This document shows, in pieces, positions 2,411-63,789 of a stretch of DNA of 64,000 nt (positions are counted from its first letter, which is position 1; each line of letters opens with the position of its first letter). The stretch comes from Saururus chinensis. Taxonomy: Eukaryota; Streptophyta; Magnoliopsida; Piperales; Saururaceae. The position numbers and the translations under genes were made by a program. The stretch is taken from positions 23,003,057 to 23,067,056 of the forward strand of contig CP141148.1 of the NCBI GenBank assembly GCA_035235625.1. The letters run 5' to 3'. Under the pieces are notes generated by a model. That model was not told the origin of the DNA. It made no database searches and saw nothing but the letters and a program-made list of their open reading frames with translations.

Positions 2411-5400
2411 GCTGCCTCTAGTTCATCTTTTCAAGTTGGTGCTGGCCGCACCACCACTGCTGGCCACACCACCACTGCTGCACTTGGTTCGTCATCATCT
2501 TCTTTTCACCGTGGGCATGGCCAACTTGCTCGTGGATGTGGGAAAGCCCAAGCAGCACCCGTGACGAGTGATTCATCTTCCGTCTATTGTTATAAATGTG
2601 GTTTTCCCAACCACTATGCTAATCATTGCGAGGCCGCTGATCCCTCTCCAAATGACACTACGTACTCAATCTTTTGCCGCCATGCATTTATCTGACCATC
2701 ATATATCTACTTGGTACCTTGATTCTGAGGCCACCCATCATATGACGACCGACGCGTCACTTGCCGAAGGTATTGTTCCCTATAATAACTCAGATAAGGT
2801 TCTTATTGGAAATGACACTAGTCTATCTATTACCCACAAAGGCCGTATTACTCTACCTTCCATGTCTTTGCTTCTTGATCAAGTTCTTATAGTTCCTCAA
2901 TTGAAAAAGAATCGGCTAAGCATTTCTCAGTTTACCAGAGATAATAACTATTGTTTCCAATTTTATCCATGGGGTTTTATTGTTAAGGATCTATAGACAG
3001 GGAAGATATTGCTGATGGGGCCTAGGCAGGGTGGTCTCTATTCTCTTCCTGTAAGCGGTGGTTTACATCCTCCTCCAATAGGTCTGATTTCAAATAAGGA
3101 TGATGGTGCTCTCTGGCATGCACAGTTGGGCCATCCAAGCCAACAAATAACTTAGGAGCTTTCTTTAGTTTTACATTTACCAGAAATTACTTCTAAACAT
3201 TTTTGTGTAAGTTGTAAGTTGGGAAATACTTCTAAACTACCTATTTCACAAAGGAAAAATTATTCACGTGAGCATTTTGCAATTCTCCATAGTGATGTTT
3301 GGGGACCTGCCCCAATTAACTCACTTGATGGGTATAGATTTTATCTTGTTATTGTGGACGAATATAGTTGTTTTACGTGGTGTTTCCCTCTATGCTGCAA
3401 ATCAGATGTGTCCCCTATTTTTATGGAGTTTATTAAATATGTGGCAAATTATTTTAAAGTTCATATTAAGGCAATTCAGACGGATGGCAATGGTGAGTAC
3501 CTTAGCCACATACTTCAAGACTTCTTTAAAGACCGTGGCATATCTCACCTTCTTTCTTGCCCAGGTACTCTTGAGCAGAATGGTCTTGCTGAGCACAAGC
3601 ATTGCCATGTCGTTGAAATAGGTCTCACCCTGATGGCTCATGGGCATCTTCCCAAAGTATTTTGGCATCATGCCTTTGCTACAACCACTTATCTTATTAA
3701 TCGTCTTCCTTCTAAGACATTACAGGGTCAAACGCCATTTGATCTTCTATTTGGGTCATGACCTTCTTATTACCATATGAGGGTACTTGAGCGTGCCTGT
3801 GATCCGTACTTAGGTCCTTTCAGTCGGAGCAAACTGGACTTCAAATCCATATGGTGTGTATTATAGTAGCCAACACAAAGGCTGCAAATGTTGGGACCCT
3901 ACCAGTGGAAAAATATATATTTCGCTACATGTTTCCTTTGATGAAGCTAGTTTCCCTCTTTCTAAATCTCTATCTATGGCCAACATACCTGCCCCTCATC
4001 CCTTTAGAGTCCAAAAATTCCCTATCTCACTCTTGCCTATTCATCATACCCCAGAGGCCTCACCATTACCCTTATCCTCTACCCCCTCTCTTCTTGGACC
4101 GGTACCCTTCCAAACCTACCAGTGACATGCAAAAATGATGCCTATTGCTCCACCTCCTATCCTTGATCCTCCAAAAGTGCCTCTCACTCCATCCGTTGAG
4201 ACATCACCCAAGACACCAGCTGCACCACCCCTTCATCACCCTATGGTGACAAGTAGCCAAGATGGAACTCTCTGTCCTAAGGCTTACTTTGCCACCCGTC
4301 ATCCCATTCCTCAAGCTCTCCTTGCTTCCCATCTTGCCCTTCCTCAAGAACCCACCACCTACAAGGCCACAACTCATGATCCTCTTTGGGTTTAGGCAAT
4401 GGAGGATGAATTCTCAGCGTTGCAATGCAATCACACTTAGTCTTTGGTTCCCTACTCTCCTGCAATGAATGTGGTTGGCAGTAAATGGGTCTTCAAGTGA
4501 AAACAACAAGCAGATGGTTCAATTGAGCGTTATAAGGCCCGCTTGGTGGCCAAAGGGTATAATCAACGCAATGGACTTGACTTTGAAGAAACCTTTAGTC
4601 TAGTTGTCAAGGTGGGCACTATCCACCTCATTCTTTCTTTGGCTGTCCAATTTCACTAGACCTTACGATAGCTTATGTAAAAAATGCATTCTTGCATGGT
4701 GATTTACAGGAAGATGTGTATCTACAACAACCACTTGGGTTTGTGGACTCCAACAAACTCACACATGTGTGTCATCTTCATAAAGCACTATTTGGGTTAA
4801 AACAGGCTCCAAAGGCATAGTACACCAAGTTCACCACTTTTCTCAAGAAACTAGACTTCACTGGCTGTCGTATGATCCATCCTTATTTATTCGCCAATGT
4901 GTGGCTGAGACTGCTCTCCTTCTTTATGTGGACGACATTGTCCTTACCAACACCCATGCTGCTCTATTACAGGAGCTTGTGGATTCTCTCTCCAAGCAAT
5001 TTGCTATGTTCTACTTAGGCCCATTGCACTTATTTCTTGGCATGTAGGTGGCCCGCTCTACCTCCAACCTCACTCTATCTCAAACCAAGTATGTGTTACA
5101 ATTATTGGATCGGTTTGACCTTACTAGTGTTCTCCCGGCTAAGAGCCCACTTGCTGCTAGGGTACATTTATCTGCTCAGGGTTCTTCACCCTTGCCAGAT
5201 CCCTTCTTGTACCGTTAGACGGTTGGGTCCCTTCAATACCTCACCATGACTCGACCAGACTTAGCCTTTGCCGTGAACCGTGTGTGCCAGTTTATGCACC
5301 TCCCGTGCACCCATCATCTTAACGCGGTCAAAAGATTTTTTCGATATGTCAAAGGCACACTCCACTACAGGTTGCAATTTTGTATGACAAATCAGCCCAT

Positions 5401-6128: not shown

Positions 6129-8310
6129 ATGCTCTATTAAAAACATAGTAATACACAAGGCAAACCATGCCATTGACCTCCATCATTTCTTGCAGGGAAT
6201 TGTCACCAGTGATAAACAAAGCAGCGGCCCATGTGCTCACAATGTGCACCACTGCTCTCTCCTCCTCATTGCCCCTAACTGCTGCATGTGAACATGAAAA
6301 TATACTCTCGCCTGTCAATAAAATTGAAGGTTTTACGGGTACCAATAGAATTGGGAGGAGGTACAAATGAGACAGAAAATTGAATCTGTATTTATAAGTG
6401 CTTCTCATTATCTAAAAAAATTGAACACAATATTACATGGTGCACACTCCTCTGCCTCATTTAAAAAAAAGACCGAAAGAAAGAAAGAAATTAGCTTGTT
6501 CTTGTACTATGGTAAAAAATGAAGAAATAATGGCCATTTAACCTCACCCCTTCAAGTGACGTTCTTGTAGACATGCTTGAAATTGATGATCAGCCAAAAT
6601 TCTGGATGAACCTAAAGCTGAGAGTTTTTCCTTCAAAATTGCAGCTGCAAGGAAAGTAAAAATTTAGCTAAAACAATCAGATCATTTTAAAGGAGTCAGG
6701 CATTTTTTAGCTGAAATCCTTCACAAATCTTTCTTGAAAAATATGTGAGCACCTTGTCAACCAGACCATGGTCTTCAGCCAGAACAAAAGGAAGAAGAAA
6801 AGATTGTGGTCACAAAATCCTCCTTTCTAGTAATTGGGTAGTATCAGCTCTCTGGGCCATCGGATGAAACCTCATGATTCCTTCCATTGCACAATTTTTG
6901 GTGAAGATTGAGAGGTTTATTTGCAGTTTTCACTTGAATGTGCAATAGATGATAACAACAAATCGAGAAATGGACATAGCTTTAATAAACTTGATTGACC
7001 CACAAGTCATTGAACGAAACCCTTTCTGCTGCAGACCACTCTATTGTCTGATGTTATAATGTCGTCTCTGTTTGCCATGTTATAGATGGTTTTTATGATT
7101 CAGGTTATAACATGTGTGTAACTTTTTAATTTTGTGATGAGATGATTTTTATTGTATTATATATACAGCTATCTATTGTTTATTCTTTGCCTAAAAAACT
7201 CTGTTCTTCTTTCCGGGTACAAATTGTAGCTTATGTTGAATACAATTTAAACATAAAAAACTCTTATCTTTTAATCTTTACCTAAAAAATTCTGCTCTCC
7301 TCTATTTTGTGAAGACTGTTGTTATATTAAGCAATTTATTTGGAGACTTATTGTCCTTGCACAATTCTTTGCATGTGGATCCTACTGGTTCTTCCACTGA
7401 GATATGAAGACTAGTCCTTATGAGACAGTTTTCTTGATATTTATCTACCAACATAACTAATGCATACATATTATCACATGCATGTCTGTGTTAAATGTTC
7501 ATTGAAAGGATGAAGTTTTGCATTCTCTTCTTTGATTTTCACAATCTTTTCCTTCTCTAATTTTGTTATTCTTCTCTTCTACCCTTCTGAATCCAGACAA
7601 TGACCCTATTGCGAAATTTTCCAAAAAATATACATGTGTGATGCAAGTATAAGAGAAGTGGCTTTACTTCTAATTAAGCAAGTTTTTCCGTAGCTACTGA
7701 TCCTAAGAGCAAGAGTTGCGTACATAATACAGAGGCAAAATTACTTTGTTTTTGCTTCTTCTTTCTGATTGTAGATTGATCTGCCCGGTTACTCCTGACT
7801 TTACCTAGTCTTCTATAGTAGTCATTCGTGCTGATAATCGTATACATTATAATTGCGAAAAAATGAGTTATCAATGTTTTGGTGTTAACTTACAAAAATC
7901 ATGCCATGGCAAAAGGTTCGGACAAAACAATATAAAAGAAAAAATATTGAATAGCACGCTACGAGAAGATCATGTATGCATATTCAGAACAAACGATCGA
8001 TCAATGAGAGGAATTTGCATATTCAGAACAACCTTCGTCTACAAATACGAACTATGATGCAAAAGCGAGGAAAACAATTTAAAGCAGACACCTCATACAT
8101 AAAAAACCAAATAAATATAACAGGAACGAAGAAAAAAAGCATCAAACTTTCCCTTGCACTGCCCCAAAATTTTGGAAAACGCAAAAAAAAAAAACCACGA
8201 AAGGTTAGGTATAAGAGCTATTTCTTCCGGTCCAGTTCGAGACAAAGCACTACAACAAGAAGTCAATTCCTCGCCCCTCAGGCTCAGGCCTCAGCTTAGT
8301 CCCTGGAAGA
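6129..8310. other. Non-coding AT-rich interval
   Basis: No supported gene. The open frames here are short and show no family signal. A short GAAA repeat lies near 6472-6490. The last 150 bases lead into the broken DUF538 gene. A TATAAG hexamer at about 8209, 100 bases before that gene's ATG, could be its old TATA element. Confidence 0.5.
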
Positions 8311-8850
8311 ATGGCCTTCTAGCCACCTACACGCCTTCTCTCGTTCTTCCTCTCCTTTGCTCTACTTCATCTCCCCCTCGCTTTGGGCTCCCAACAGAGA
8401 CTCTCGGACGCTAGCTATACATGACATCCTCTTCAGCTACGGGTTCGCCAAGGGCCTGGTGCAGGACACTGTCGAGGCTTACTCCCTTGCCGATGATGGG
8501 TCCTTCAGGATCCGGCTGTCGAGGCAGTGCTGCATCCGATTCGACTATCTTGTCTACTACAAGAAGACCATCACTGGCAAGCTCTCCTACGACAAGATCA
8601 CTAACCTGACCGGGATGCAGCCATCCAGGCCAAGAAGCTCTTCGGACTCCGTCAATGCGATCGCGCTGAGCTCCGTGAGGAGTTGCAATCCACTAAGCAC
8701 CGTGAGGAGGAGTGAAGAGAGAAGCTTGGACGGGGACGAGAGGAGTAGAGCTGGGATGGGCGGCACTGCGGCAGTGAAGAGGCATTCAGTGGAGGAAACA
8801 CATCTGACACCTTATTTTTTGAACGTACGTGTAATTTGGTACGTGTAATT
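8311..8850 (+). pseudogene. Broken DUF538-family gene
   Basis: The DUF538 core is clear between about 8411 and 8618: HDILFSYGFAKGL, then YSLADDGSFRIRLSRQC, then FDYLVYYKKTITGKLSY. These match the conserved blocks of this small plant secreted/apoplastic family, whose function is poorly defined. A hydrophobic signal-peptide-like stretch (LLSFFLSFALLHLPLALGS, about 8332-8390) lies upstream but in another frame. The ATG at 8311 that would begin it is followed at once by a TAG. Downstream of the core, family-like residues IQAKKLF reappear in a third frame near 8620, so there is a further small indel. The tail to 8850 has no family resemblance. With three frames needed, I call it a pseudogene. Sequencing error could explain only part of this. 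Confidence 0.75.
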
Positions 8851-10215: not shown

Positions 10216-12180
10216 ATGTGGGCAATCCTAGACCACTACTCCCCTCCCATCTTGCAACTCTCTCTTAGATGGGGACAAAAACTGATTTTCAGCTCCCGCA
10301 GTTTCTTCAAGGACTTCATCTCCTTAGGAAACCACCTCAAATTTGAATATCTTGTAATTACCAGAGTCTGCAGCTCAGTGAATCTAAGTAGATTGTTGGA
10401 GAGCTTCTTCACCTCTTCATCACCTTCAATTTCCAAATGAATAAGCATTGGGAGGTTGGGTAATTTACTGAGCAACTTTGCTGGGAAACGCATGATCTGA
10501 GTGCTCGGTGGGATGGATCCCACCTCACTCAGGTTCGGGCAGTCCCGAATCGCAACCTCTTTCATTGCTTCTGAAACAATGCGGTGTAAAACTTTCAGAT
10601 TTTCACATCTCCTTAATTCCAATCTGCGGAGACAGGGCATATGTGCCATTATTCCCGTCTTCATGCTTCGGTCTAATTTTCCACAGTTATGAATGTACAG
10701 TTCTTGCAGTCCCTTCATGGAGTTCATGAACTCCTCAGGAAGATACTTTTACTTCTGAGCAGTTCTCAATTCTCAAGAGTTTTCAACCCAGTTAATCAAA
10801 GTAGATCGCTAGAGAGCTCTGTTGTCACGTCAAAAATTTTCAAATGATCAAGCTTCGGGAGGCTGGGTAATTTACTAATCGACACACCTGTACAACTTGA
10901 CATAACAATTTTTTGCAGTCGGTGAGATCGATTCCAACCCACTCAACTTCTCTACACCCCAAATCTTTACTTGTCTAAGTTCTTCAGATTAAATGGGGAG
11001 CAATGCTTTTAACTTTGCACATTTGTAGATGTTAAATGTGTGGAGACAGGGCATCCGTCCGACTCCACCTCATGTAGTAGTCAACAATGATGAGTCCCAC
11101 TCCTCCCAGTTCTCCAACCTCTCTATCGACAAGTACAACAATTTAGGAAACCCATTCTTGGACCCGAAGAACTCACTGCCCACTTTTCTCACCTCTGGCA
11201 TATCAGTACAATTTGGACCTCTGCAAAATTCGACTGTGACTAGACCGGAGAAAGACGACTCTCCTACCCAACTTGGAAATTGTGAACCTTGATAGTTGTA
11301 AATTGCAAGCTCTTGGAGATTGGGATGGGATCGGAGAGCTTCCATGACACCCTATGCTCTGCTCAGCTTGGCTCTCCTCGACCATCTTAGTTGTAGTTTT
11401 TTTAGAGAACTTTTATCCTCAAGTTTTGCATTCACAGCCTCGTCGTCTCTGTTTCCTACCTCCAAGTGTTTTATGGAAAGTGTCTCTTGGAGGTGGTTGA
11501 GATCTCTCAACTCACTCAGGTTGCACTCTCATGTCACAATGAATTTGTCCAACTTCTCGAGGGAAGTTAATTTCCTTATTCATGTCAATAATGTCTTTAA
11601 CACATAAGTACTATAAATTCTAAGTTATTTTAAGCTGGTCATTCTTTGGATTCCACATGGTAATTTATTGAGTTTTCTACAAAAAAAATAGATCTAAGAG
11701 TTGCAAATGACACGGGTTAATTATATATTCTAGCAATTTCTCTATATCTGACCCTTGCAAATTGAGATATCTCAGCTGGCCTAACTTCCCAACTGATTCT
11801 GGAATACTTTTTAATCTTGTATTTTTCAAGGTGAGATATCTCATATTCTACAATTTCCCAATAGACTCTGGCAATGCCTCAATTCTTGGCCCACATAAAT
11901 CGAAATATCTTAGATGCACTAACTTACCAATTGATTCGAGTAATTTCAAATTGCTCATTCCATACAATCTCAGCATTCTAATGCATTGTAGTTGTTCAAG
12001 TGCGCAATTGTAGACATGAGAATTACCCTCAAGCTTATCATCAAAGAGTGTTTTTGTCAAGTCCTGTACCAGTCCAGGTGGAAGTTTTCTACTATTGAAC
12101 ATTAAATGGTCTTGTGCATTGTAGTTGTTCAAATGGTCCCAAATATATAGTCCCCTTTTTTATATAATGCTCTTTATATT
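10216..12180 (-). pseudogene. Decayed CC-NBS-LRR (NLR) gene, LRR part only
   Basis: Read on the minus strand from 12180 to 10216, the order is that of a plant CNL leucine-rich-repeat domain. First comes a linker with LPPGLVQDLTKTLFDDK, then repeats such as IRMLRLYGMSNLKLLESIGKL and HLRYFDL (11848-12132) and MRYLTLKNTRLKSIPESVGKL (about 11760-11850). Next is the C-terminal NLR landmark GSQFPSWVGESSFSGLV (about 11245-11300), then IGSEFFG-like residues. It ends with repeats at 10236-10727 (LEIEGDEEVKKLSNNLLR, LVITRYSNLRWFPKEMKSL). Frames change several times (near 11.75, 11.35, 11.0 and 10.73 kb) and stops intervene. No coiled coil or NB-ARC (P-loop, GLPL, MHD) is found upstream to 13.2 kb, so the 5' half is lost. 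The source would be an intracellular immune receptor. Confidence 0.8.
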
Positions 12181-45237: not shown

Positions 45238-46872
45238 AGAATAAAAATTTTATTTAAATAATATTAAAAAAATAATTACTAACTTAGATTATTTTAGAAA
45301 ATATTTTTTAAAGTGGTGCTCTTTTTTGCCACGCAGCTGGTGCTGCGTGGCTTTGTTTTTATTTTTTTAAGTTGATTTCATCTTTCTAAAAGACAAAACT
45401 GTGTCAAGTTATAATATTGTTGAACCGATTTTGTCCTTTAGAAAGATGAAATCAACTTAAGCTAATTTCGTCCTTCTAACGGACGTAATCGCAGTGAAAG
45501 CGGAAGCGATATTTCTCAAAGTGATGTTGGTTTTTGCCACGTAGGCACTAGCTAAGCGCTAGCGCCTGCATGGCTTTTTTTTTAATTTTTACTAGAATGA
45601 CGAAATCAAATTTAAGTTGATTTCATCCTTTCAAATGACGAAATCGTAAAACAAATGAAGTGATTTCATCGTTTCGAACGACGAAATTAGCAGCCAGAAA
45701 AAATGAAACAGCGTCAACTGTTAAAATGATTTCGTTGTTCGAAACGATTTTTTTGACCATCTCACAGATCTCCCGCTCACTGCCCTTCAACTAAGGCAAG
45801 ACAAGTCAGTGTGGAGAAGAGCTGAAAGAGGAACTTTGCCCGCCATTATTGTCTCTGAGCTGCAGCAGACTAGCAGGGACGAGTGTTGCTGACTCGTCGT
45901 CGTTGTACAAGTCCGTGCTCCAAATGCTGGAAGGCAAAGCTCGATTTGCCATCTCCTCTAGCGAGCACACCACTTTCCCAGAGGGGAGTAGACAAGGGCT
46001 CGCCAATCATCGTTCTGAGCAATGATGAGGAACTGACTCCAATAGTGGTTGTCGGGAGCTTGCATGGCACAATGAACGTGTCTTATGAGGAACGTGCCTG
46101 CTTGTAGAGGGAAGAGCATGGGCTGAGCTCCTAGCGGACAAGGCTGCCCATGGATATGTGAGGGACCTGCAGCAACCTCGACAGCACTGGGGTTACCCAT
46201 CAGCACCCACTATACCCCGCGCCCCGCCGTCATCCCGTACTTGTCTACCCTCAGGCCCACCCTGTGCAGCCCCTTCCCAGCCTCCTCCTCGTCGTAGTAG
46301 TAATCGTAGTCGCATTGGAGCGCGGCCACTGCAAACGATTGGCTCACGAGACGCGATGCAATGCAGGAGGCCGGAAGCTTCTGGAAGCGACAGAGACCAA
46401 CCATGGTGGGCAGCGGCGACAAGGCTTCATTGCTTGCTAGCCATGCTTTGGTTGTGAGAAAACAGGGAAAGGCGGGCGTACTTTCTGCGGAGAGAGCGCT
46501 TGGTAGGGTAAGCCTGACATAAGAATAGATGTAGTTTCCTACTGGTAGGGATGCCTGTGTGTGCTAGGTTACTCGGTAAACGTAGGATGATGATGATATA
46601 TCATTATTGTGGAATACAATATAGGATTGTGGGTAGGCGATTTGGCAAGAGATGGCGACGTTTTTTCAGTTGACGTTGTTTCATTTTTTCTAGTCGTCGC
46701 AAACTAGTGTGGTGATTTCGTCTCAGTTAAATTTTTTTTTTTAAAAAGCCACACAGGCGCCAGCGCTTAGCTAGTGCCTATGTGGTAAAAACCAACACCA
46801 CTTTGGGAAATATTTCCCAAAGTGGGTTAGTTTAGTAATTATTTTTTTAATTATTATTTAAATAATTTTTTA
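45238..46872. mobile_element. Pack-MULE-like non-autonomous MULE with captured gene pieces
   Basis: The outer ends (ATTTTATTTAAATAATATTA at about 45248; TTATTATTTAAATAATTTTTT to about 46869) match those of the full-length MULE at 48158-55228. Inside are the same palindromic modules: CCACGC..GCGTGG-type stems, GATTTCGTC-type repeats, and a perfect 28-bp palindrome at 46798-46825 (CCACTTTGGGAAAT and its complement). The left side has two TIR-like units in tandem (about 45240-45505 and 45510-45770). The second pairs with the right TIR (AGAAAAAATGAAAC near 45699 against 46670-46690). The core, 45780-46480, is GC-rich and unlike its surroundings, as in captured genic DNA. No 9-bp target duplication is evident. 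Confidence 0.7.
46105..46450 (-). pseudogene. Captured adenylate kinase fragment (N-terminal part)
   Basis: On the minus strand, residues resembling the start of a plant mitochondrial-type adenylate kinase appear in order. A presequence-like stretch (QKLPASCIASRLVSQSFAVA) and an acidic DYDYYYDEEE segment come first, then RGV-stop-WVLMGNPS, where the family has RGVQWVLMGDPG. After a short gap and a frame change, LSRLLQVPHISMGSLVR and ELSPCSSLYKQ follow; the intact family reads LSKLLEVPHISMGSLVRQEL. The stretch between them is missing, and two in-frame stops and a frame change show it is not functional. It lies between MULE TIRs and is much more GC-rich than its flanks. The identification rests on remembered family sequence; the following segment (45780-46100) is not identified. 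Confidence 0.6.
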
Positions 46873-47991
46873 GCTTATTTTATTTACAATTTAAATTATT
46901 TTTTTATAAAAAATTATATTAGTTTTAGAAAATTATATCAATATTATAAAAATAAAAAATTATAATAAATACAATTCAATTCTAATAAAGTTGTAAATAT
47001 ATCTTCAAAATCTATAATTAAAATAAAAGCAGATAAATTAACCTATAAAAAATTTTAATTGGTCACCAAAAATTTAATTAATATTATTTAAATCTCTCAT
47101 ATAATAGAGATAATTATATAAATAATATTAAACAATAATAATTACCGAAACAACGAAGAGAAAAATATTTATTAATATAGTGTTCCTTTTTAGGTGTTGG
47201 TGCCTACGTGGTTTTTTTTTCAAAAAAAATTATAATTCCGTACTTCTAAAAGATAAAATCAATATAATATAAAATAACAAAATTAATATAATGTATTGAT
47301 TTCGTCCTTTTAAAAGAGGAAATCAGTAAAATATACTGATTTCGTCATTTAGAAAGACAAAATCAATGATGAAATGATTTTGTCCTCTCTCTTCACTCTT
47401 TCTCCTCTTTCTCTCTCTCTTCACTCTCTCTCCTCTCCTCACTCTCTCTCTCCCCCCTCTCTCTTTCCTCTCTCTATTCATTCTCTATCTTCTCTCTCTC
47501 CTTGAAAGTGCAAAATCTAGACAAGCCAGCCATATCTCGGTAGTAAGGGAAGGTTTACTTGAAGTTTAGGTTATTGTTGAATGATTCCCTATTTTTCAAT
47601 TCTTTTCAAGAGAATTCCCTTTCGTCATATTTTGGCCTTTTTCTGACATTTTTGCCTCACTCTCACATCTCCCTCTGTCTGATTTCACATGACATTTCTC
47701 TAAAGCTTTTGAATAACTTTTTAGCATCTTCTCCGGCCATTGCACTCTATCTCCTACCTCATGCCCCTTCCTTCTTCCCTCCATGGTGCCTTCTCTTTAG
47801 AAGAATAAACCTTCACCTCCATGAAGGTGGTGATGGTGGCAACACTTCCACACTCCACCCCTCTACCTCCTTTACTATGGCCAAAATCTATGCAAAGTAG
47901 ATCTCTCCACTTTTTTGGCCCCGTCAATCCATCAAAGCTCCCCTCCCACCATACGATGGAGCCAACAACAAGAACTCATCATCAGGGAGTG
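46873..47991. other. AT-rich spacer, MULE TIR remnant, CT-rich tract, shared repeat
   Basis: 46873-47165 is extremely AT-rich with nothing recognisable. About 47170-47395 resembles one MULE TIR (GTGTTGGTGCCTACGTGG, then GATTTCGTCCTTTTAAAAG-type palindromes) with no partner end. 47388-47505 is a CT-rich low-complexity tract. About 47600-47950 is the repeat shared with 17360-17830. The 113-aa frame at 47559-47900 (plus) lies in that repeat and has no family signal. Confidence 0.5.
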
Positions 47992-48148
47992 TGATAGCCC
48001 CAAGGACCAGTTGTAACACGTGAGAAAGTTCTGAATTCCCTATACTTTGCTACAACGAAATAAGTGAGTTTGACCTTTAAGTATTTTTGGTATAATAACT
48101 TCCTCTATATTTGGGTTTCATATATAAAAATTTATTATTAAATTAATA

Positions 48149-48157
48149 TAGAAAGAT
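48149..48157. repeat. Left 9-bp target site duplication of the MULE
   Basis: TAGAAAGAT immediately before the GGGAAAATTATTT end. An identical 9-mer follows the other end at 55229-55237. Nine bases is the hallmark size for Mutator-like insertion. Confidence 0.92.
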
Positions 48158-48442
48158 GGGAAAATTATTTAAATAATAATTAAAAAAAAATTTACCAAAA
48201 TATATGTTCAATTTTGCCACGCAGGCGCCAGCGTGGTTTTTTTTTTATTTTTTAAGTTGATTTCGTCGTTTAGAATGACGAAATTGGTTTTAATACGATT
48301 TCGTCGTTCTAAACGACGAAACCGTTTATTACTTGACCCGGTTTTGTCGTTCTGAACGACGAAACTGCCACACTTGCTGATTTCGGCATTCGGTCTCGGA
48401 ACAACATTGATTTCATCGTTTAGAACGACGAAATCAAATTAA
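48158..48442. repeat. Left TIR of the MULE, modular palindromes
   Basis: Pairs with 54936-55228. It begins with the palindrome ATTATTTAAATAAT, then CCACGCAGGCGCCAGCGTGG (a 20-bp near-palindrome), then four GATTTCGTCGTT-N3-AACGACGAAATC-type palindromes (starting near 48259, 48297, 48338 and 48408). Compared with the right TIR it lacks the CCACTTTGGGAAAT palindrome and half of the GGCGCCAGC stem, and has one extra TCGTCGTT palindrome. Confidence 0.85.
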
Positions 48443-48703
48443 ATTTTTTTCAAATTACTATTTAAAACTAATTTTATCACATGTCCCTGTTCATTCATTC
48501 AAAACACAGATGTACATGCACGACTTCATTCATTCCACCCATAACAAATATCACCATAACAAATATTAATATCACGAATATCACCATAATAAAAATCACT
48601 ATCACGAATATCACCATAACAAATATAAGTAAAGTATATCCATAATAAATATAAGTAAAGTACATCATAGACGAGTAATAAATATAATACATGACAAGTA
48701 ATA

Positions 48704-51007
48704 TCATAATCTCCTACGTCCTCGTCCTCGATGGTGGTGTACGAGCTCCTCATGATCTACCTTTAGCTCTGGCTGTGGCTGTGGCTCTGGCTCTGACTCC
48801 GACTGGGGCTGCGGCTGCGGCTTGGGCTCCGGCTGCGACTCCATGTCAGGCTCCTGCTCGGGCTCCGGCTTAGCATATATAATAGATGGTACAATACGAG
48901 CTGGCCGATGTCGTCTATAATATAAAATCGGATCTGGCTGCGCTACATGTGTAGTGTATGGAAATGATGAACCTGGAGGAGAGCTATATGCTGCTGATGA
49001 TGATGGAATATCAGGGCATGAAGAGTGCATCGGCTGCGTCTGAGCGGCCTCGTTGACAGGATAATCTCGAGGAACATCTGTGATCACCGAATGAAGTAGT
49101 GGCAAGCTACGAAGGACATCATTAGATGATCTAATCACCGACTCACATGTTGCTGCTAAGTCCTCGCGCGAAATACAGGTGACAAGTGCATCACTCAAAT
49201 ACGCATTAGTATGTCGAAGCTGACGAAGCTATAAAAAAATAAATTAAATATTAGACAAATAATTAAAACGAAATAAGAAAATAATATATGCCTTAATTAA
49301 CAAAGTTGTACTTACTAGAGCTGCCTCATATGCTCCCCTAGGCTGATATGTCATCTCCTCTACATCATCGTGTGGTAAAATATATCGTCGTGTAATCGGT
49401 AAATACCAGTGCATATAAGTACTACGATCATCTCGCAATGTCGTAGCCATCTCCCCTCTAATAACAGTGGCTCTCCTATCCTCCCATCGAGCAATATACG
49501 ACGCATGATATATAGCCCAGTCGGTAATATGGCGGCACTGTCGAGTGATGCGATGGACAAACTCGACAATAGAAGGTGGGACCCCTTGCTCCAGGTTAAA
49601 CTGGAGCATTACACGATCTGGCACATACATCTCTATAATCTCGTAACATATTAGAGGGGTTCGAGAAAGCCATACCTCTCGATCGTCCGTGCAGAGTGGA
49701 GGTATCACAGCCAACAAGTCCTCCGAGTACGGCTGCCAAATAATCTATACAATATATAAAGATAATTTAGTTTAAATAACGACAAAATTTTTTAAAATCA
49801 TTACATAAAAAAGTTCAACACGTTAATAAAATTACCTGGTATGGCCGCTGGTGGTCTAACTCCACTCTATACAATCGGAGGACTCCTTGGGGATTTTCAG
49901 TTCTCTTCTTTCGAACATTCCACCTTAAGGAGTTAAGTTTAAGAAATGAGTGCAGCATATGTACATAAAACGTTGATTAAAAAATAATATGGTAAACATA
50001 AATACAACCTACCTCGCCCCTAATAGAGCACCCTCGACCAAGCGACCCATCTCAGCAGTTGGTCGGCTGACGTGTAAGTGCTCCCATGACCATAACTATG
50101 TCATAAAATACTGATAACAAATATTAGAATTAAAAAATTATATGTGACTAAAACACCAAGTAAAGTTACACAATTAATTACCTGAAGAAGGGTCAGACAA
50201 CCTGCAATCCTCGAGGTCATGGCCTGACATGCCTTTCCTAACTCTCGGTATAAAAATGCGAGAGTAGCACTGCCCCATGAATAAGTGCCAGCCATGTCAA
50301 AGTCGGCAAGGAGAGAGAGATACGAAACATGCACGTGGTTGCTCGTGGTATCCGCAAATATGGTGGCTCCAAGTAAATGCAATATATAGGCTCGTGCATG
50401 TTGCTCGATAACTATCTCTGTAGCATCAGCTGAGAGCTCGCGAAACTCCTGTAAGAGCCATCGTAGGCTCACTCGACTACCACACATCACTGTAGCAGGA
50501 GGAGCTCTACCAAGAAGTCTAACTAATATATCCATATAAGCTCATCCTGTCGTGCCTGTCACCGGACGTCCATCAATACGGAGTCCTAATAGAACTGCCA
50601 CATCCATGAGCGTGATGGACATCTCTCCATATGACAAATGAAACGTCTGTGTCTCCCTCCTCCATCTCTCAACAAGAGCTGTCAATAGAGGACGATCAAG
50701 ACGGACATACTATAGATGAATGAAATGGCCGAATCCAGCTCGCTCGATATAAGGTAACATACGCTCATCTATGGGCCAATGATGGAGATATTTAAAATGT
50801 TTGGTGCACTCAAGGCACCCGGGGTCCTATAATAAATTTTAAAATTATAACATATCGTACTATATCAACCAAAAACAATGAAATAAATTTTAAATTTAGT
50901 TATCATACCTCTCCTCTCCAAATAGCAGCAGACCTATCTGACTCCTGCTGTATGAGTAAAGAAGCGTCACTCGGGCCTGGCCCGTAACAAGTCTCTGCAT
51001 GATCCAT
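48704..51007 (-). pseudogene. Plant mobile domain (PMD/MAIL-like) protein gene of the MULE, two stops
   Basis: Six exons with GT-AG junctions and consistent phases: 50909-51007, 50182-50826, 50013-50095, 49836-49923, 49316-49744, 48704-49228. Together they are 1869 nt (623 codons). The product has the PMD (aminotransferase-like, MAIN/MAIL) fold region: HFKYLHHWPIDERMLPYIE, YGEMSITLMDVAVLLGLRID, a central AYILHLLGATIFADTTSN block, LYRVELDHQRPYQ, IIWQPYSEDLLAVIPPLC. The C-terminus is low-complexity Pro/Glu/Gln (KPEPEQEPDMESQPEPKPQP) and ends RRGRGRRRL. Two in-frame stops interrupt exon 2: TAG at 50710-50712, where the family has Gln (HLQYVRLD), and TGA at 50542-50544. PMD proteins occur as host genes tied to silencing and as transposon passengers; here TIRs and the transposase neighbour mark a passenger. 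Confidence 0.82.
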
Positions 51008-51104
51008 ATGATCTGTGGAAAATGAAGATCATATCATTAATCGTAAAGGAATACATGTGTACGTAACTAAAAAAATATAATAAATACAGAGGTTGATTAT
51101 ATGT

Positions 51105-53947
51105 TTACCAATCAATAGGAGGGTTTCTACATGATTTACTATTATGCCCACTTTGTTTACACCTCCCGCATTTATATCCTCCTCTACCATCTCTTTCCAT
51201 TGTTCTGCGGTCCATAGTATTCCTAATGTGAACAGACCGTGGGCGACCGGGTTGCCTTATTGCTATCGGTGGGTATAACACAAAAGGTATATCCCTCTCC
51301 CAATACTCCCGACCACGAGGAGAATAAAATTCTGCGGAGTACACATTTCTATAAGTAGAAGATGTGTAAAACAGTGATGCATGGATTGGCTCCCACTGCT
51401 TTGCCCACACGGCGATAAGGTGCGAGCAAGGATAACCATAAACATGAGGGATGTTGCATGTACAAGTATGCATTCTCGCATTTACCATAACCTTCCGGCC
51501 ACGAATAGACGTCACTTCATATTGACCGCTGTTAATCCGATTAACTATATACTCCCCAATTTTTCTTGTTTGCTCTCTCAATATAGCTTCCACTCTAGGA
51601 GTATACGGGGTAGTCATGGCAGAGGCGGCAGAAGATCGTTTAACAAAAAATTTTATGAGCCGATAAAAGATAGCTGACACTAAAGCCTGCATGGGTAAAC
51701 CTCGTGCCCCCTTCAAGACGCTATTTAAACTTTCAGCCATATTTGTAGTAGTCATGCCAAATGTTATAAAACCACCGTGAGCAAGGGACCACTGTGCAGG
51801 ATGTAATTCTCCTCCTAAGAGGAGATGTTTTGCCCTAGGACTCTCTTGGCCAATTAAGTCCATTTTAGCATCAAACTTTTCTACTATGAGTGCACAAGCT
51901 GCTGCCCCAATCAAGTCCGTGAGTGTATCATTTTTAAACTCCTTAAAATTTGCTTTTATGTGACGTATGCAATAACGATGGTGGTAATCCGGCTCTAGAA
52001 GAACCTCAGGCACGGCCTTTTGAAGCCCCTTATGTCGATCTGAAATAATGACGATGTTCGTCATGCCTATCAGTACATGATCCCTCAATTCCATTAAAAA
52101 CAATTTCCAATTGTCTCCATCTTCCTTCCCGACAAGCCCGAATGCAAGAGGAAATAACCCATTATTTCCATCTGTAGCCGTTGCAGCCATAAGCGCACCA
52201 GGATATCTGCCATACAAGTAAGTAGCATCAACGCCAATCACAGGGATGCAATGTCGAAACCCCGCTATAGATGGCCCAAACGCCCAAAACAACCGTGTAA
52301 ATCTCCTACAAGTGCCACCATCTGCACGCGGTACTACAACATCCTCTAAGCGGTAGTAGGTGTCAGGATTGGCTTCTTGCACCGCCCTTAGGTACATTGG
52401 CAACAATTTATACGATTCTACCCAATCTCCATAAATGGCCTTAATCGCCATATTCCTTGTTGCCCATGCTTTCTTATAAGATATGTCAACATGATACTTC
52501 TCCTTCATTCTTTGAATAATATCCCCTGGTGTGAGAGTTAATTCGGCTTGGATAGCGGGCATTATGACCTTCGAAATAAAGGAGGCACTACACTGCCTAT
52601 GATCTGTGCTAAGCTGGGCATTCCGACATGTGTGGTCACCTTTGTACTTCTTCAATTTAAATGAGCCACCACCCATTTTGATTGAGCCATGCACTCTCCA
52701 AGGGCAAGTGCTATCAATGCACTTCACTGTATACTCTGACGGATTTGTTCGTACAACCTTGTATTCGACATGATTTTCAATTGAAAACTCCTGCAAGGCT
52801 GTAACAAATGCTTCTTTATTCTCAAAGATGCGGCCAACATATAACTCATCTTCATTTTGTTGGTCCAAATCCATTGTAGAATTCACTGCCGCATTTATCT
52901 CCTCATCTGTGATGTGTGCATAAAGTGGCTCCACTTCACAGTACGACGGTTCTTCATCATCTACATTCATATCATTCCTAGCAATGGCATTGTCTACCGC
53001 ATCATCCCCCTCGCCGTCAACCATCTGTTGAGCGCTTTCTTCACCTCTAACCCCTTCTACATTCATGTTAGAATCTTCTCCACTTACTTTGTCAACATTA
53101 TCTTCACCTTCATTATCCTCATGTTCATCAATATCTTCACCGTAGACATATCCCCCCTATATATAAACATCACATATGTATTAAATTTTGTAAGCCTAAA
53201 AAAGTTGAATTCATTTATAAATATATATTTCACCTCTGATTAGATGGTCCAGCATCGGTATGACCAACATACGTGTAGGGGTAATGAAGGCCCATCGAAC
53301 TTTGAGTTTCATACCATGCACCGCCTTGAGACATTTGAACGCTAAATGGCTCGTGTGCATGCGTCGTGGACCTTCCATATTACACATAAAATCTCAAAAT
53401 TTAGCTAAACTTATTTTTATTAAAGGATAATAAGATTGAAAACGTATTCACAACTAAACCAACCTTACCTCCAATTAGGTCCACTTCCATCGTAGATAGG
53501 GGCAGACGACCTATGACGTTCATTTGAAGATACTGTCATAGATAAATTACCTTTTTCGTCGTCCATCGGCATTTGCATATGACTTTCATTGTTCACATTT
53601 CTATCTGAGCTCCTGTGTGAGCTTCTGTGAGAGCTCCTACGTGAACTACTTCGCCTTTCACTAGTCACTCGGGCCTCTTTTTCGAGAAATAACTCGAAAG
53701 AAATTTTGTCACATGTGTGGTGAAACATAAAAGCCATTGATGAATCATCATTTATGTTCATTAGTATCATTCTCGATCCATAGGACGGAAGATTACATTT
53801 AATAGTAATTTTCCATCTTCTTCGATCCAACCCAACCTTACTTGCTACGTGCATCTCAAATTCATCAAATGTAGACGGTTTCTTCATTAATAATCCTTCT
53901 ATGCGTCCGTCGTAGTTAATGAAAAAACTAATTATTTCTTCTGCCAT
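51105..53947 (-). CDS. MuDR-type MULE transposase
   Basis: Cuts and pastes the element using its TIRs, in the nucleus. Exon 1 (53469-53947) encodes a PB1-like N-terminal domain (ISFFINYDGRIEGLLMKKPS) and a Ser/Arg-rich linker. Exon 2 (53234-53371) is short. Exon 3 (to 51105) carries a 653-codon open frame from the ATG at 53066. Its domains are MuDR N-terminal (about 73-160, CPWRVHGS), MULE catalytic core with D280 (VIGVDATYL), D343 (IISDRHKGL) and E445 (NMAESLNS), SWIM zinc finger C535-x-C537...C547-x-H549, and a zinc knuckle CX2CX4HX4C (633-646). The exon 1-2 junction is in phase. At the exon 2-3 junction the frames differ by one base, at a run of six G (53152-53157), so either that run has slipped or the splice differs from my reading. 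Otherwise it looks whole. Confidence 0.9.
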
Positions 53948-54935
53948 TTCTATTCAATTAATTCATAAATAATAAATTAAATTAATATTAGATTAAGCCA
54001 ACTAATACTAATATCTACCCTAACCAATATATTTTCAAAAATATCTACCCTAATACTAATGTCTCAAACTATATAAGCTGTAAAAAAAGCATGTTAAAAA
54101 ACTCAAAATCCTCCTCATTTTCCAAAATTTGAGAGACTTGTCATCTTAAAAACTTTCAATTTTGTCTCCCACTTCCAATCTTGAAGGAGAAATTGGTGTC
54201 CTTTGATGTAACTGATAGTGATAGGTTGGTGTATATTATTTCAAATCAATGCATATGTTATGGGTCCTCAATAATTGGCCACAACCGCTTTCGTATTTGG
54301 CCAATCAAAATTAATATTTTGTACATTTACTTAACTAAGAAATGCTAAAACTTGGGGCATATAAGGAAGATTAAAACTAGCTAAAGTGTATATTCTAGAC
54401 GTTTGCATTTTCATAAATTAGTTAATAAAATATTAATAAAAAATAATATTTCTACTCTATTTTCTTTATGCGGATACAAGATGAAAAATTATGCTTGCCC
54501 ATGTAGAATTTTGTCAAATAGAATATTAATATTCGTATTAATTTTGTTTAAAACGACTGAGAATAAAACTTCTAAAACTAGGGCTCAATGATGGGACAAT
54601 CAAAACTTCAAATTTATTCAATATAAGCATACAAAAGATAAATTTATTTAATATAGCATACAAAAGATCCATTGCAACGATTAAAAAAGAGGTAAATGAA
54701 AAAAAATTTAAAGCAAAGGATTGCACCAGAAAATTTGAATCGGAAAGGGCTGGACGTGGGCAGCGGCGGGCTGGACGTCGGCGGCGGCCTGGACGCCAAG
54801 CAGGACGGCGGCGACAGCGGTGGATCGCTCGACGGAGGCGGAGCGGATCACTAGACTGAGGCGAGTGGAGGCGGAGCAGAGCGGATCTGTGGAAATATAA
54901 ACGATGATTTCGTAGTTCTGAAGGACAAAATCAAC

Positions 54936-55228
54936 TTAATTTGATTTCGTCGTTCTAAACGACGAAATCAGTGTTGTTCCAAGACCAAATGTCGAAATCA
55001 GCAAGTGTGGCAGTTTCGTCGTTCAGAACGACGAAATCGTATTAAAACCAATTTCGTTGTTCTAAACGACGAAATCAACTTAAAAAATTAAAAAAAAAAA
55101 AACCACGCTGGCGCCAGCTGCTTGGCTGGCGCCTGCGTGGCAAAATTGAACACCACTTTGGGAAATATTTCTCAAAGTGGTATATTTCGATAAATATTTT
55201 TTTTAATTATTATTTAAATAATTTTCCC
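54936..55228. repeat. Right TIR of the MULE, modular palindromes
   Basis: Read inwards from 55228: ATTATTTAAATAAT; a 28-bp near-perfect palindrome at 55153-55180 (CCACTTTGGGAAAT half-site, one mismatch); a 38-bp near-palindrome at about 55104-55141 with GGCGCCAGC on both arms; then TCGTCGTT-type palindromes at about 55047, 55013 and 54943-54969. The last is a perfect GATTTCGTCGTT-CTA-AACGACGAAATC. Confidence 0.85.
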
Positions 55229-55237
55229 TAGAAAGAT
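55229..55237. repeat. Right 9-bp target site duplication of the MULE
   Basis: TAGAAAGAT directly after the CCC end, identical to 48149-48157. Confidence 0.92.
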
Positions 55238-57249
55238 CTTCATGGAGATTCCAAGAGTACACAAATCAAATTTCAAATGAGGAAATTATGATAGACGTAA
55301 TATCAAGGAAGTTTTGGAATACATGTGGAAAATAGTAAATTTGACCTTTGAGTATTCTCAATGTAATAACTTATTTTGTGAGTTGAATTTGAGTTTGAAA
55401 CTTCTGTATAGAAAACTAGACAAGACATAGTTTTCAAACACCTCTAAAAATACGTGAATCAGAGTTTGGATGGAGTTGTGATCATATGAAGGTGGACCTA
55501 AGGTGTTGTCAATGGCTTACAAACGCTTGTAGATTTGACCCTTGGACTCTCCTAATACCATAACGTTTTTTAAAGATAGATTTTCTATCTAAAATTTTGG
55601 AATTAGAAAGTAGATAGAAATATATTTGAATCACCACTAAGAACTTGTTAATCGTAGTTTTGGGGCTAAAATGAATTTAATAATTCAAAAACATACTAAC
55701 ATAAAATAATTGAAGTTTAGGGTCATGTGGGTCACACGATGTCCAATAGTGGACTTGGGGCCCACAATGGGGTCCACACCCTTAATTAAGGAAATTACAA
55801 TAAAATCCCATAAATCCATAAAAATAGGATAAATCAAGTTTGATATTAAAACTTATAAAAATACAATTAAACCTTATTAAAACCATAATTACTAACCCTT
55901 AACCCCAAAATCAAGTGAAACCGGTAATTTAAGCAAAACCACACAGTGTCATATAATAAAAAGAAATTAAACTGGGTTAAAGTTAAAGATCTTACAATGA
56001 TTGCTGGGGTGATAACATAACATATCATAACATAATGGCAACCAAAATCCTTAAATAAGCAAGTCATCCATCTAAGTACAAATCATACATTAGTCTAGAA
56101 ATAAGCAACTAAATAAAGTTGGCTCTCACGCCATTATTACAATAATCTAAAATATATAGGAATAATGGAACTAAATCCTACTAGATCTAAGTTGTCCTCA
56201 TTCCGAATGCCCGTTCTTGATCACGCTAGTCCTCTCCAAAAGAACCTACAAAACTAGGTCATTGAGTATACAAATACCCAGTAGGATAGTAGAATAACAA
56301 ACAAACACAAAATGTTATCACATTTTATGCAAGTCCACTTAGGGTTTCACATGCACTAATTATCACGAAGAATATCATTATAATTTCCTATCAGTTTCCC
56401 TTAAGAGAAAGCAACCCACCTAATCTTATAAATAGATAGACTCTTTAAATGTCAACCTAAGTGACAAGTGATATTATATCGCTCCAGCCTGAGATCCAAC
56501 TTGAGTCAGGGGTTTCAGGAACCTAAAGTCCGGGTTTAAAAATTAAAACCAAACCAGGAGCGGCGGAGTCTAAGTGCGAGAGCCATAATGTTCCTCTACG
56601 CACTATAGAGCTTTAGTGCTTCATTGCGCATAGGCTAGAACAAACCTATTGTATATATAATTTGGATCGGGCTAGCATTGTCTTGCCATTGGTTACCTAC
56701 GTACGTATTAGAAAACACCTACGATGTTATTCCAATACGATCGGATCGGAACATAGTTCGGCCTAATGTCTATTGCATGAATCAAGCAGCACAAAAATGC
56801 ATATGTCAAAATATGTATATCCGAATATTTAATTGGAGTCATACTAAAATCTCATAAATCATAAGAGTTAAACAAAAGCTATTAAATCAGTGGAATCACA
56901 CGTATCGCTCTATCACAGGGCGAAGCATAACACTAACATAATCACACATCTCGCTCTATCATAGGGAGGAGCATAACACTAACACAATCACACATCTCGC
57001 TCTATCACAGAACATGGCATAACACATCAGGCTAGATTATATCAGATCACAACAAATCATATCAAATCTCATCTGACCATATTAGATCAGATAGGAGCAT
57101 ATCATATCACAACACATCACGTCAAAGAAAATAAGATCAAAGTAGAACATATCAAAACACATCAGATCAGAGCAAGCATATAACTTAATTAGCACATGCA
57201 TTCCTATAATCATATATTAAATCAAAAGATTAGAAACATTTACTCCCCT

Positions 57250-62326: not shown

Positions 62327-63406
62327 TCCACAGTCATAGCCCTGCCATCCACCACCTCCTTCCTCCCAAAGCCCTCTAGGTTTTTCCAAAACACAAATTA
62401 GGGCTGAGTTTATGACTCTTTAAATAGGGAGGGGATTAGGGCTTATATAGAAAAGGACAAAACCTAAGTAGGAGAAGGACTCTCCTAAGTGGCATGGACT
62501 CCCCAAAAATTGGGGTTCATCATCCACCTAATTGGCCCCATAATGGGCCCCTTGATTCCTTTTACACAGCCCAAAAATTATTTTGTATACCCCAACTCCA
62601 AAAATAAAATAAAAAAGAGAAAATTAGAAAAAAATTCCTAAAAAATACCTGAAATTTTGTAGGTTTTACAACCACTGCCTAACCAGCCTTGGGTGTATAG
62701 GGGGTAGAGTAGTGGAGATAGACTCTAAATAGTCAATCCAATGAGATCAAGTTCTAAGCATCTGAATCCGGTCAAAGTACATATGAAGGACTATATATCT
62801 CTCAAACAAATAGGTTTATCTTGGCGTTGGATCCGCTGTGGAGCACTCACATGTGAGTGCTCCACAGCGGATCTGAAGGCGTTTATCTTTTGCCTGTGTA
62901 AAGGATGAAAATGCTTGAGAAGTGCTCGGCCGATATGGGCATCTTAGCCATCTAAAAAATTGAAATCAAATCTATGGATAAAGATAGAAATAAGCAGAGA
63001 ATAACTCAAATAAACATCCTAACGATTATAAAAAAAAAATTGAAATTAAAAAAATGTTGCCCAATTTTAAATTTATGAAAATACTCCTAGAGAAAAAAAA
63101 AATTCTTTGAGTGATCACAAATTTCAGTATGTTGAGGATATTGAAGAGATAAGCAACTTTTATAACTAAAATTACTGTCAATTTTAAGCATAAACCCAAA
63201 GATTTTCAAAATCCCGGATTTGGGTGAGTTTTCAAACCAAAATGTAAAAATATTTCAAATGTAAAAATATGTTGAAATCTTAAAAGTTTAACACATAAAA
63301 TTGAGAAAGAAATCAATATAAAATCGCTCCAATATGTGCTAAACAAGCTTCTACCTTTTAAAAAAGTTTGGAATTGAATAAAGGTAAAATGAGGTTATAA
63401 ATTATA
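62327..63406. other. Non-coding interval with a perfect 44-bp palindrome
   Basis: AT-rich, no gene. It contains LTR-like debris near 62400-62580 and the palindrome at 62830-62873. A CTTTAAATAGGG stretch near 62418 and TTATATAG near 62444 could be relics of an LTR promoter. Confidence 0.45.
62830..62873. repeat. Perfect 44-bp palindrome
   Basis: The half-site GATCCGCTGTGGAGCACTCA plus CA is followed directly by its exact complement with no loop. Symmetry ends at both outer borders (62829 G against 62874 T). It is GC-rich within an AT-rich setting. Confidence 0.95.
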
Positions 63407-63789
63407 GGGAAAATTATTTAAATAGTGATTTTAAAAAATAATAATTACAAAACTAGCCCGCTTTGGGAAATATTTCCCAAAATAGTGTTGGTTTTAGCCA
63501 CGGAGGCTTGCGTAGCTTTTTTTTAAAGAAAAAAATTATATAATTTCATCATTTGGAAGGACGAAATCAAGTTTTTTAAGAGTTAATTTCATCCTTCCAA
63601 ATGATAAAATCATAAAAAAAAAATTAAGTGAATTCGTTGTTCGAAACACCTAAATCACCTTAAAGGTGGTTTCATCGTTTTGAACGACGAATTCACCAAA
63701 ACTGTGTGGTTTCATCTTCGAACGACAAATTCACCAAGACTATAATTGGCCAAAACTGATATCACCTTTAAGGTGGTTTATTATCATAG
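63407..63789. mobile_element. Left TIR of another MULE of the same family
   Basis: Starts GGGAAAATTATTTAAATA, matching the full-length MULE end. It then has a near-perfect CCGCTTTGGGAAATATTTCC palindrome (about 63459 on), a GCCACGGAGGCTTGCGTAGC stem and several diverged TTCGTCNTT/AACGACGAA palindromes to about 63775. Its other end is beyond the window. Captured host coding sequence begins directly after it. Confidence 0.75.

Follow-up and report, generated by a model that had tools for sequence, protein, structure and literature searches.

A MuDR-type Mutator-like element of Saururus chinensis carrying a transposase gene and an interrupted plant mobile domain gene

A 64,000-nucleotide stretch of contig CP141148.1 of Saururus chinensis (the whole of which was analysed and is hereafter called the window) contains a Mutator-like element (MULE) of 7,071 bp at positions 48158-55228, with both ends defined. 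Very probably, it is a MuDR-type MULE of a flowering plant, flanked by a 9-bp target site duplication, which carries an open transposase main exon and, on the same strand, a six-exon plant mobile domain (PMD) gene that is broken in this copy by two stop codons. The PMD gene would be a long-standing passenger of the element, and its product might counter silencing in working copies.

The 9-bp sequence TAGAAAGAT is identical on both flanks of the element and represents its target site duplication. The outermost 32 bp of the two ends form a perfect inverted repeat, and the terminal inverted repeats (TIRs) are long, reaching about 290-300 bp inward once indels are allowed. Alignment of the two arms gave 13 mismatches over 242 columns (10 transitions and 3 transversions, i.e. 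5.4%), in addition to 101 gap columns, almost all of which are due to three large indels and to a ragged inner end. The TIR arms of a MULE may already differ before insertion, and therefore the divergence of 5.4% is not usable as an age. About 60-100 bp beyond the element ends, the segments 48057-48101 and 55328-55372 form a direct repeat of 78% similarity, perhaps an older repeat within the insertion target. In addition, a GC-rich segment (54739-54890, 70% compared to 40% for the element) is flanked by the right TIR on one side and the transposase gene on the other; it may represent a 5' leader or captured sequence.

Of the two genes, the upstream one codes for a transposase of the MuDR type. 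Its main exon matches the Pfam families MULE (E-value 3.8e-19), DBD_Tnp_Mut (3.4e-11), Transposase_mut (4.9e-6) and SWIM (3.2e-4), and possesses D310, D373, C396-x2-H399 and E475 (residue numbers of the main exon), in agreement with the DDE and C2H pattern expected of MULE transposases. Two proposed exons lengthen the frame upstream to a Met; several GT-AG pairs between exon 2 and the main exon (exon 3), with poor acceptors, yield open products of about 850-860 codons. Comparison of the transposase exon with solved structures returned chance-level matches only (best E-value 0.18), as did that of one piece of the PMD product (best E-value 0.22).

The PMD gene follows the transposase gene in tandem on the minus strand, its ATG lying 97 bases downstream of the transposase stop codon. 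Six exons, with GT-AG borders and phases in agreement, join into a product of 622 residues (with X at the two stops), which matches PF10536 with an E-value of 3.8e-89 and 299.7 bits, compared to a cut-off of 34.9. The match covers profile positions 1-346 of 347 and product residues 64-419, i.e. the full domain. A further stop, in exon 3 of the PMD gene, was dismissed, as it is removed by the acceptor ending at 50096. The features of the element are listed in Table 1.

Table 1. Positions of the features of the element in the window
Feature	Position	Strand	Remarks
Target site duplication, left copy	48149..48157		9 bp, TAGAAAGAT
Target site duplication, right copy	55229..55237		9 bp, TAGAAAGAT
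Left TIR	48158..48450	+	Four near-palindromic 23-bp units inside
Right TIR	54928..55228	-	Near-palindromic units inside
Near-palindromic 23-bp units, left end	48261, 48299, 48342, 48411		Within left TIR
Near-palindromic units, right end	54945, 55014, 55052		Within right TIR
Transposase exon 1 (proposed)	53469..53947	-	Starts MAEEIISFF; without Pfam match
Transposase exon 2 (proposed)	53234..53371	-	Most natural-looking junction with exon 3 misses the frame by one base
Transposase main exon (exon 3)	51105..53156	-	683 codons open; DBD_Tnp_Mut, MULE, SWIM, C-terminal CCHC knuckle
PMD exon 1	50909..51007	-	Opens with ATG
PMD exon 2	50182..50826	-	Two in-frame stops
PMD exon 3	50013..50095	-	
PMD exon 4	49836..49923	-	
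PMD exon 5	49316..49744	-	
PMD exon 6	48704..49228	-	Pro/Glu/Gln-rich C-terminal tail; stop at 48704

Both ends of the element harbor repeated near-palindromes, including a fourth right-end unit at 54908 that is partly decayed and straddles the inner edge of the right TIR. The pattern TTTCGTCGTTCTAAACGACGAAA, with up to three mismatches, has 14 matches in the window, both strands counted (several units match on both), compared to 0 matches in each of 100 shuffles. Single matches at 45664, 47340 and 63670 lie inside related fragments of the window. In the two terminal regions, the observed/expected ratio of CpG reaches 2.69 and 1.96, compared to 0.51 in the window; it is 0.96 for the whole element, 0.69 for the transposase exon, 0.89 for the PMD gene, and 0.72 and 0.52 for the flanking 5 kb. 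Judged from their sequence, the repeated CG-rich terminal near-palindromes are plausible candidate sites for protein binding.

It is established that MULE transposases bind the TIRs and that insertion yields a 9-bp duplication. In the present element, the transposase would bind the TIRs, perhaps at the repeated CG-rich near-palindromes, and would move the element by DDE chemistry. In Arabidopsis, MAIN and MAIL1 are host PMD proteins, which act together with PP7L in silencing. We propose that MULEs of this kind have carried the PMD gene as a passenger for a long time, as opposed to this copy having gained it by a late insertion. In working copies, the PMD protein would most likely counter host silencing; it might disturb the MAIN/MAIL1 complex, as proposed by others, or it might act on the ends of the element itself. 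That PMD has some anti-silencing role, exerted in those sister copies in which PMD may still be encoded, is a tentative proposal to which we give distinctly less than an even chance; otherwise, PMD would help in transposition or bring no benefit. If this copy still moves, PMD might be supplied by sister copies, or it might be dispensable.

Several results weigh against this reading. PMD exon 2 contains two in-frame stops on the minus strand, a TAG (50712-50710) and a TGA (50544-50542), which correspond to residues 72 and 128 of the 622 and both fall within the PF10536-matching part. Therefore, this copy gives no whole PMD protein: its PMD reading frame is not intact, and the longest product from the first ATG has at most 71 residues. 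As the PMD splice sites were picked by eye along the domain, the agreement of phases arises partly by construction; the full-length match to the PF10536 profile is firmer support for the PMD gene. In the transposase gene, a Pfam domain scan of the proposed exons 1 and 2 found 0 families, and the exon 2/exon 3 junction of most natural look is out of frame by one base. Given the PMD stops and this uncertain junction, this copy may or may not ever have been functional in its present form. Moreover, protein scans for transposase relatives gave one pattern stretch in viral contigs and nine in genome contigs, and those for two PMD pieces gave 44 and 14 in viral contigs, none of which was confirmed; an exact match to the palindrome pattern was likewise missing (0) from the viral contig collection, where such data say little. 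The lack of a confirmed relative in the scans is of little weight because the collections are viral and prokaryotic, and the claims at the family level rest on the literature. Neither PF10536 nor PF09331 (DUF1985) had a match in any of 14 control genomes or in one viral record, a result that is uninformative.

An earlier note on this DNA, which was made from its letters, had described exact ends with a perfect 9-bp duplication, and a transposase and a PMD gene as two tandem minus-strand genes. Both descriptions are borne out, the former by the perfect 32-bp TIR ends with TAGAAAGAT on both sides and the latter by the Pfam matches (MULE 3.8e-19; PMD 3.8e-89). It had also followed the PMD gene through six exons with agreeing phases as a once-spliced gene, which stands, but the two in-frame stops in exon 2 were overlooked. 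Its description of a clean element with both genes is correct for the structure, but not for the coding capacity, given the two PMD stops and the transposase exon 2/3 junction.

The defects of this copy might alternatively mark a dead relic, in which neither gene works and the element is a fossil or a substrate mobilised by other copies, an explanation that comes fairly close to an even chance. The two PMD stops, the out-of-frame natural junction between transposase exons 2 and 3, and the 13 mismatches over 242 columns plus large indels of the TIRs are all consistent with it. However, the 683-codon transposase exon is free of stops and retains the expected catalytic residues, spliced frames of about 850-860 codons are open, the terminal 32 bp are perfect and the duplication is exact; nor does the TIR divergence of 5.4% give an age, as MULE arms can differ before insertion.

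It is rather unlikely that the transposase and PMD form one gene, in which the end of the main exon is spliced into PMD exon 1 to encode a fusion. The gap of 97 bases between the two frames on the same strand would be short for a separate promoter, the acceptor TTCATTTTCCACAG ahead of PMD exon 1 is good, and several in-frame donors exist, for example at introns beginning at 51139 or 51151. In addition, PMD-C is reported as fused to MULE transposases in grasses and Amborella in the available passages of Ikeda et al. (2017, PMC5418596). However, scored against a splice consensus, the in-frame donors match just six of nine positions, the four best listed each delete the CCHC knuckle wholly or partly, and use of the donor that lies right where the transposase frame ends creates a stop at the junction.

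A capture of the Pack-MULE type, by which this or a few copies would have recently transduplicated a host MAIN/MAIL-type gene that has no function for the element, is improbable: the MULE-PMD fusions of clade PMD-C are argued to derive from captured host genes in two independent events, MULEs capture genomic sequence (both from the available passages of PMC5418596) and the PMD gene is broken here, but the presence of PMD as an extra gene across several MULE groups favors an old association (Table 1 of PMC6446971). The tandem arrangement on one strand, with 97 bases between the transposase stop and the PMD ATG, is neutral, as it fits both a capture and an old passenger, and the introns do not separate the two because transduplication copies introns too.

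A BLAST search of the window with the element revealed related terminal sequences at 46743-46869 (83% over 129 columns) and 63407-63507 (79% over 101 columns), in addition to terminal-type pieces between 45250 and 45687 and a weaker match at 47277-47386. The segment 63407-64000 is the left end of another family member, which begins with GGGAAAATTATTTAAATA only 594 bases before the window end. At 45250-46869, MULE-type terminal sequences with similar CG palindromes flank a stretch in which neither transposase nor PMD sequence is detectable; the terminal-type sequence is repeated inside this fragment, at 45509-45590, suggesting nesting. A 9-bp duplication for the fragment at ~45.25-46.87 kb was not accepted, the candidates lying only in low-complexity A/T sequence. 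A tblastn search for transposase or PMD elsewhere in the window gave one chance-level match only (E-value 0.58). The window relatives are fragments or non-autonomous and apparently gene-less, and the member at 63407 ends at the window border; they therefore do not settle whether gene-bearing copies carry PMD.

Other features of the window include a perfect 44-bp palindrome, GATCCGCTGTGGAGCACTCACATGTGAGTGCTCCACAGCGGATC, at 62830-62873, and retrotransposon polyprotein fragments at 2565-3758 (Pol_BBD, 4.9e-14; integrase core, 5.3e-9). Two host-like gene fragments are located at 8300-8845 (DUF538, 4e-13) and 10239-10748 (leucine-rich repeats of the disease-resistance type, 2.4e-9).

Altogether, the analysis adds one well-delimited sense-strand MULE-PMD element, with an exact duplication and a gene structure, to a known class; users should bear in mind that the PMD gene of this copy is broken. 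The earlier note was right that PMD is also found in transposons (PMC6446971, PMC5418596), but the combination is no special case, since most members of several plant MULE groups have PMD in the published table. It had also seen here a good case for asking whether PMD helps the element to escape silencing or to transpose. The question of silencing is already in print (available passages of PMC5418596 and PMC8616336, of 2017 and 2021), and this copy is not clean. Sister copies with a whole PMD, if there are any, would allow the family to serve for asking whether PMD counters silencing when carried by a transposon; among the matches listed from the open-licence literature, no test of this is reported.

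Compared to known systems, the element recalls the VANDAL elements and their anti-silencing VANC proteins. In these proteins, DUF1985 is one of two marked domains, and they target short motifs outside the coding regions, which often occur as tandem repeats (available passages of Hosaka et al. 2017, PMC5735166). Like VANDAL, it is a MULE with an extra gene, and the repeats at its ends recall the repeated VANC target motifs. Moreover, pieces of PMD exon 2 show a sub-threshold likeness to the DUF1985 of VANC, with E-values of 0.0027, 0.004, 0.007 and 0.025 (15.0-18.1 bits), the best being the piece 50182-50541 (E-value 0.0027, 18.1 bits). However, no match above the curated DUF1985 cut-off of 35.1 bits was found in the PMD product (best 18.1 bits), so that the element differs from VANC in lacking a significant match, the likeness being judged by the DUF1985 profile alone. 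It also differs from VANDAL in that its palindrome unit lacks the VANC21 and VANC6 target motifs given in the available passages of PMC5735166. The likeness falls to an E-value of 0.025 and 15.0 bits on a 448-residue piece, compared to 0.0027-0.007 on shorter pieces; with the 622-residue product it did not appear among the matches at E <= 0.01, and PMD exon 5 has no match, all of which count against a kinship with VANC. Among the matches listed, no literature brings DUF1985 and PMD together. The likeness is a weak hint, a lead toward a VANC-like role of PMD and not evidence for it. Drawing on this likeness and on the repeated short motifs at the ends, comparable to VANC targets (PMC5735166), one might suppose that the PMD of this MULE family is distantly related to VANC and works in an analogous way, so that it would bind the family's own CG-rich near-palindromes (TTTCGTCGTTYWRAACGACGAAA-like, about four per end) and keep the ends unsilenced; we consider this very unlikely.

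With Arabidopsis MAIN and MAIL1, the PMD of the element shares the plant mobile domain family PF10536. Unlike these two, which are encoded by host genes outside transposons, it lies inside a transposon and is interrupted. Compared to the PMD-C fusions of grasses and Amborella (PMC5418596, available passages), the element similarly combines a MULE transposase and a PMD, whereas it has two separate frames 97 bases apart, which might be joined by splicing.

The element also resembles the PMD-bearing plant MULE groups of Dupeyron et al. (2019, PMC6446971), namely VANDAL, MuDR-9_OS, MULE-Monocots, MDR, MUDRAVI2 and MUDR, with which the element shares a MuDR-type transposase with SWIM, a 9-bp duplication, a long TIR and an extra PMD gene; this likeness is drawn at the level of features. 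In Table 1 of that paper, PMD is an additional motif or open reading frame in groups 42 and 45-50, being present in a majority of the members of groups 47-49 and also, in antisense, of group 50, and VANDAL is described as having "PMD and/or DUF in half the members". The duplications of the PMD-bearing groups are 9 bp where given (9-10 bp in group 50), and groups 45-50 have TIRs of 14-421 bp in their main rows. Unlike many of these groups, in which PMD is antisense sometimes (47 and 48), often (49) or mostly (50), the present PMD is sense to the transposase. PMD itself is described as confined to angiosperms (PMC8616336, available passages), and an anti-silencing use of MULE-carried PMD was put forward as speculation in PMC5418596 and repeated in PMC8616336. 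Because PMD is reported beside MULE transposases in several plant groups (PMC6446971) and the idea of an anti-silencing use has been published (PMC5418596, PMC8616336), the element is a member of the known MULE-PMD class, to which it adds a further example of a combination already reported.

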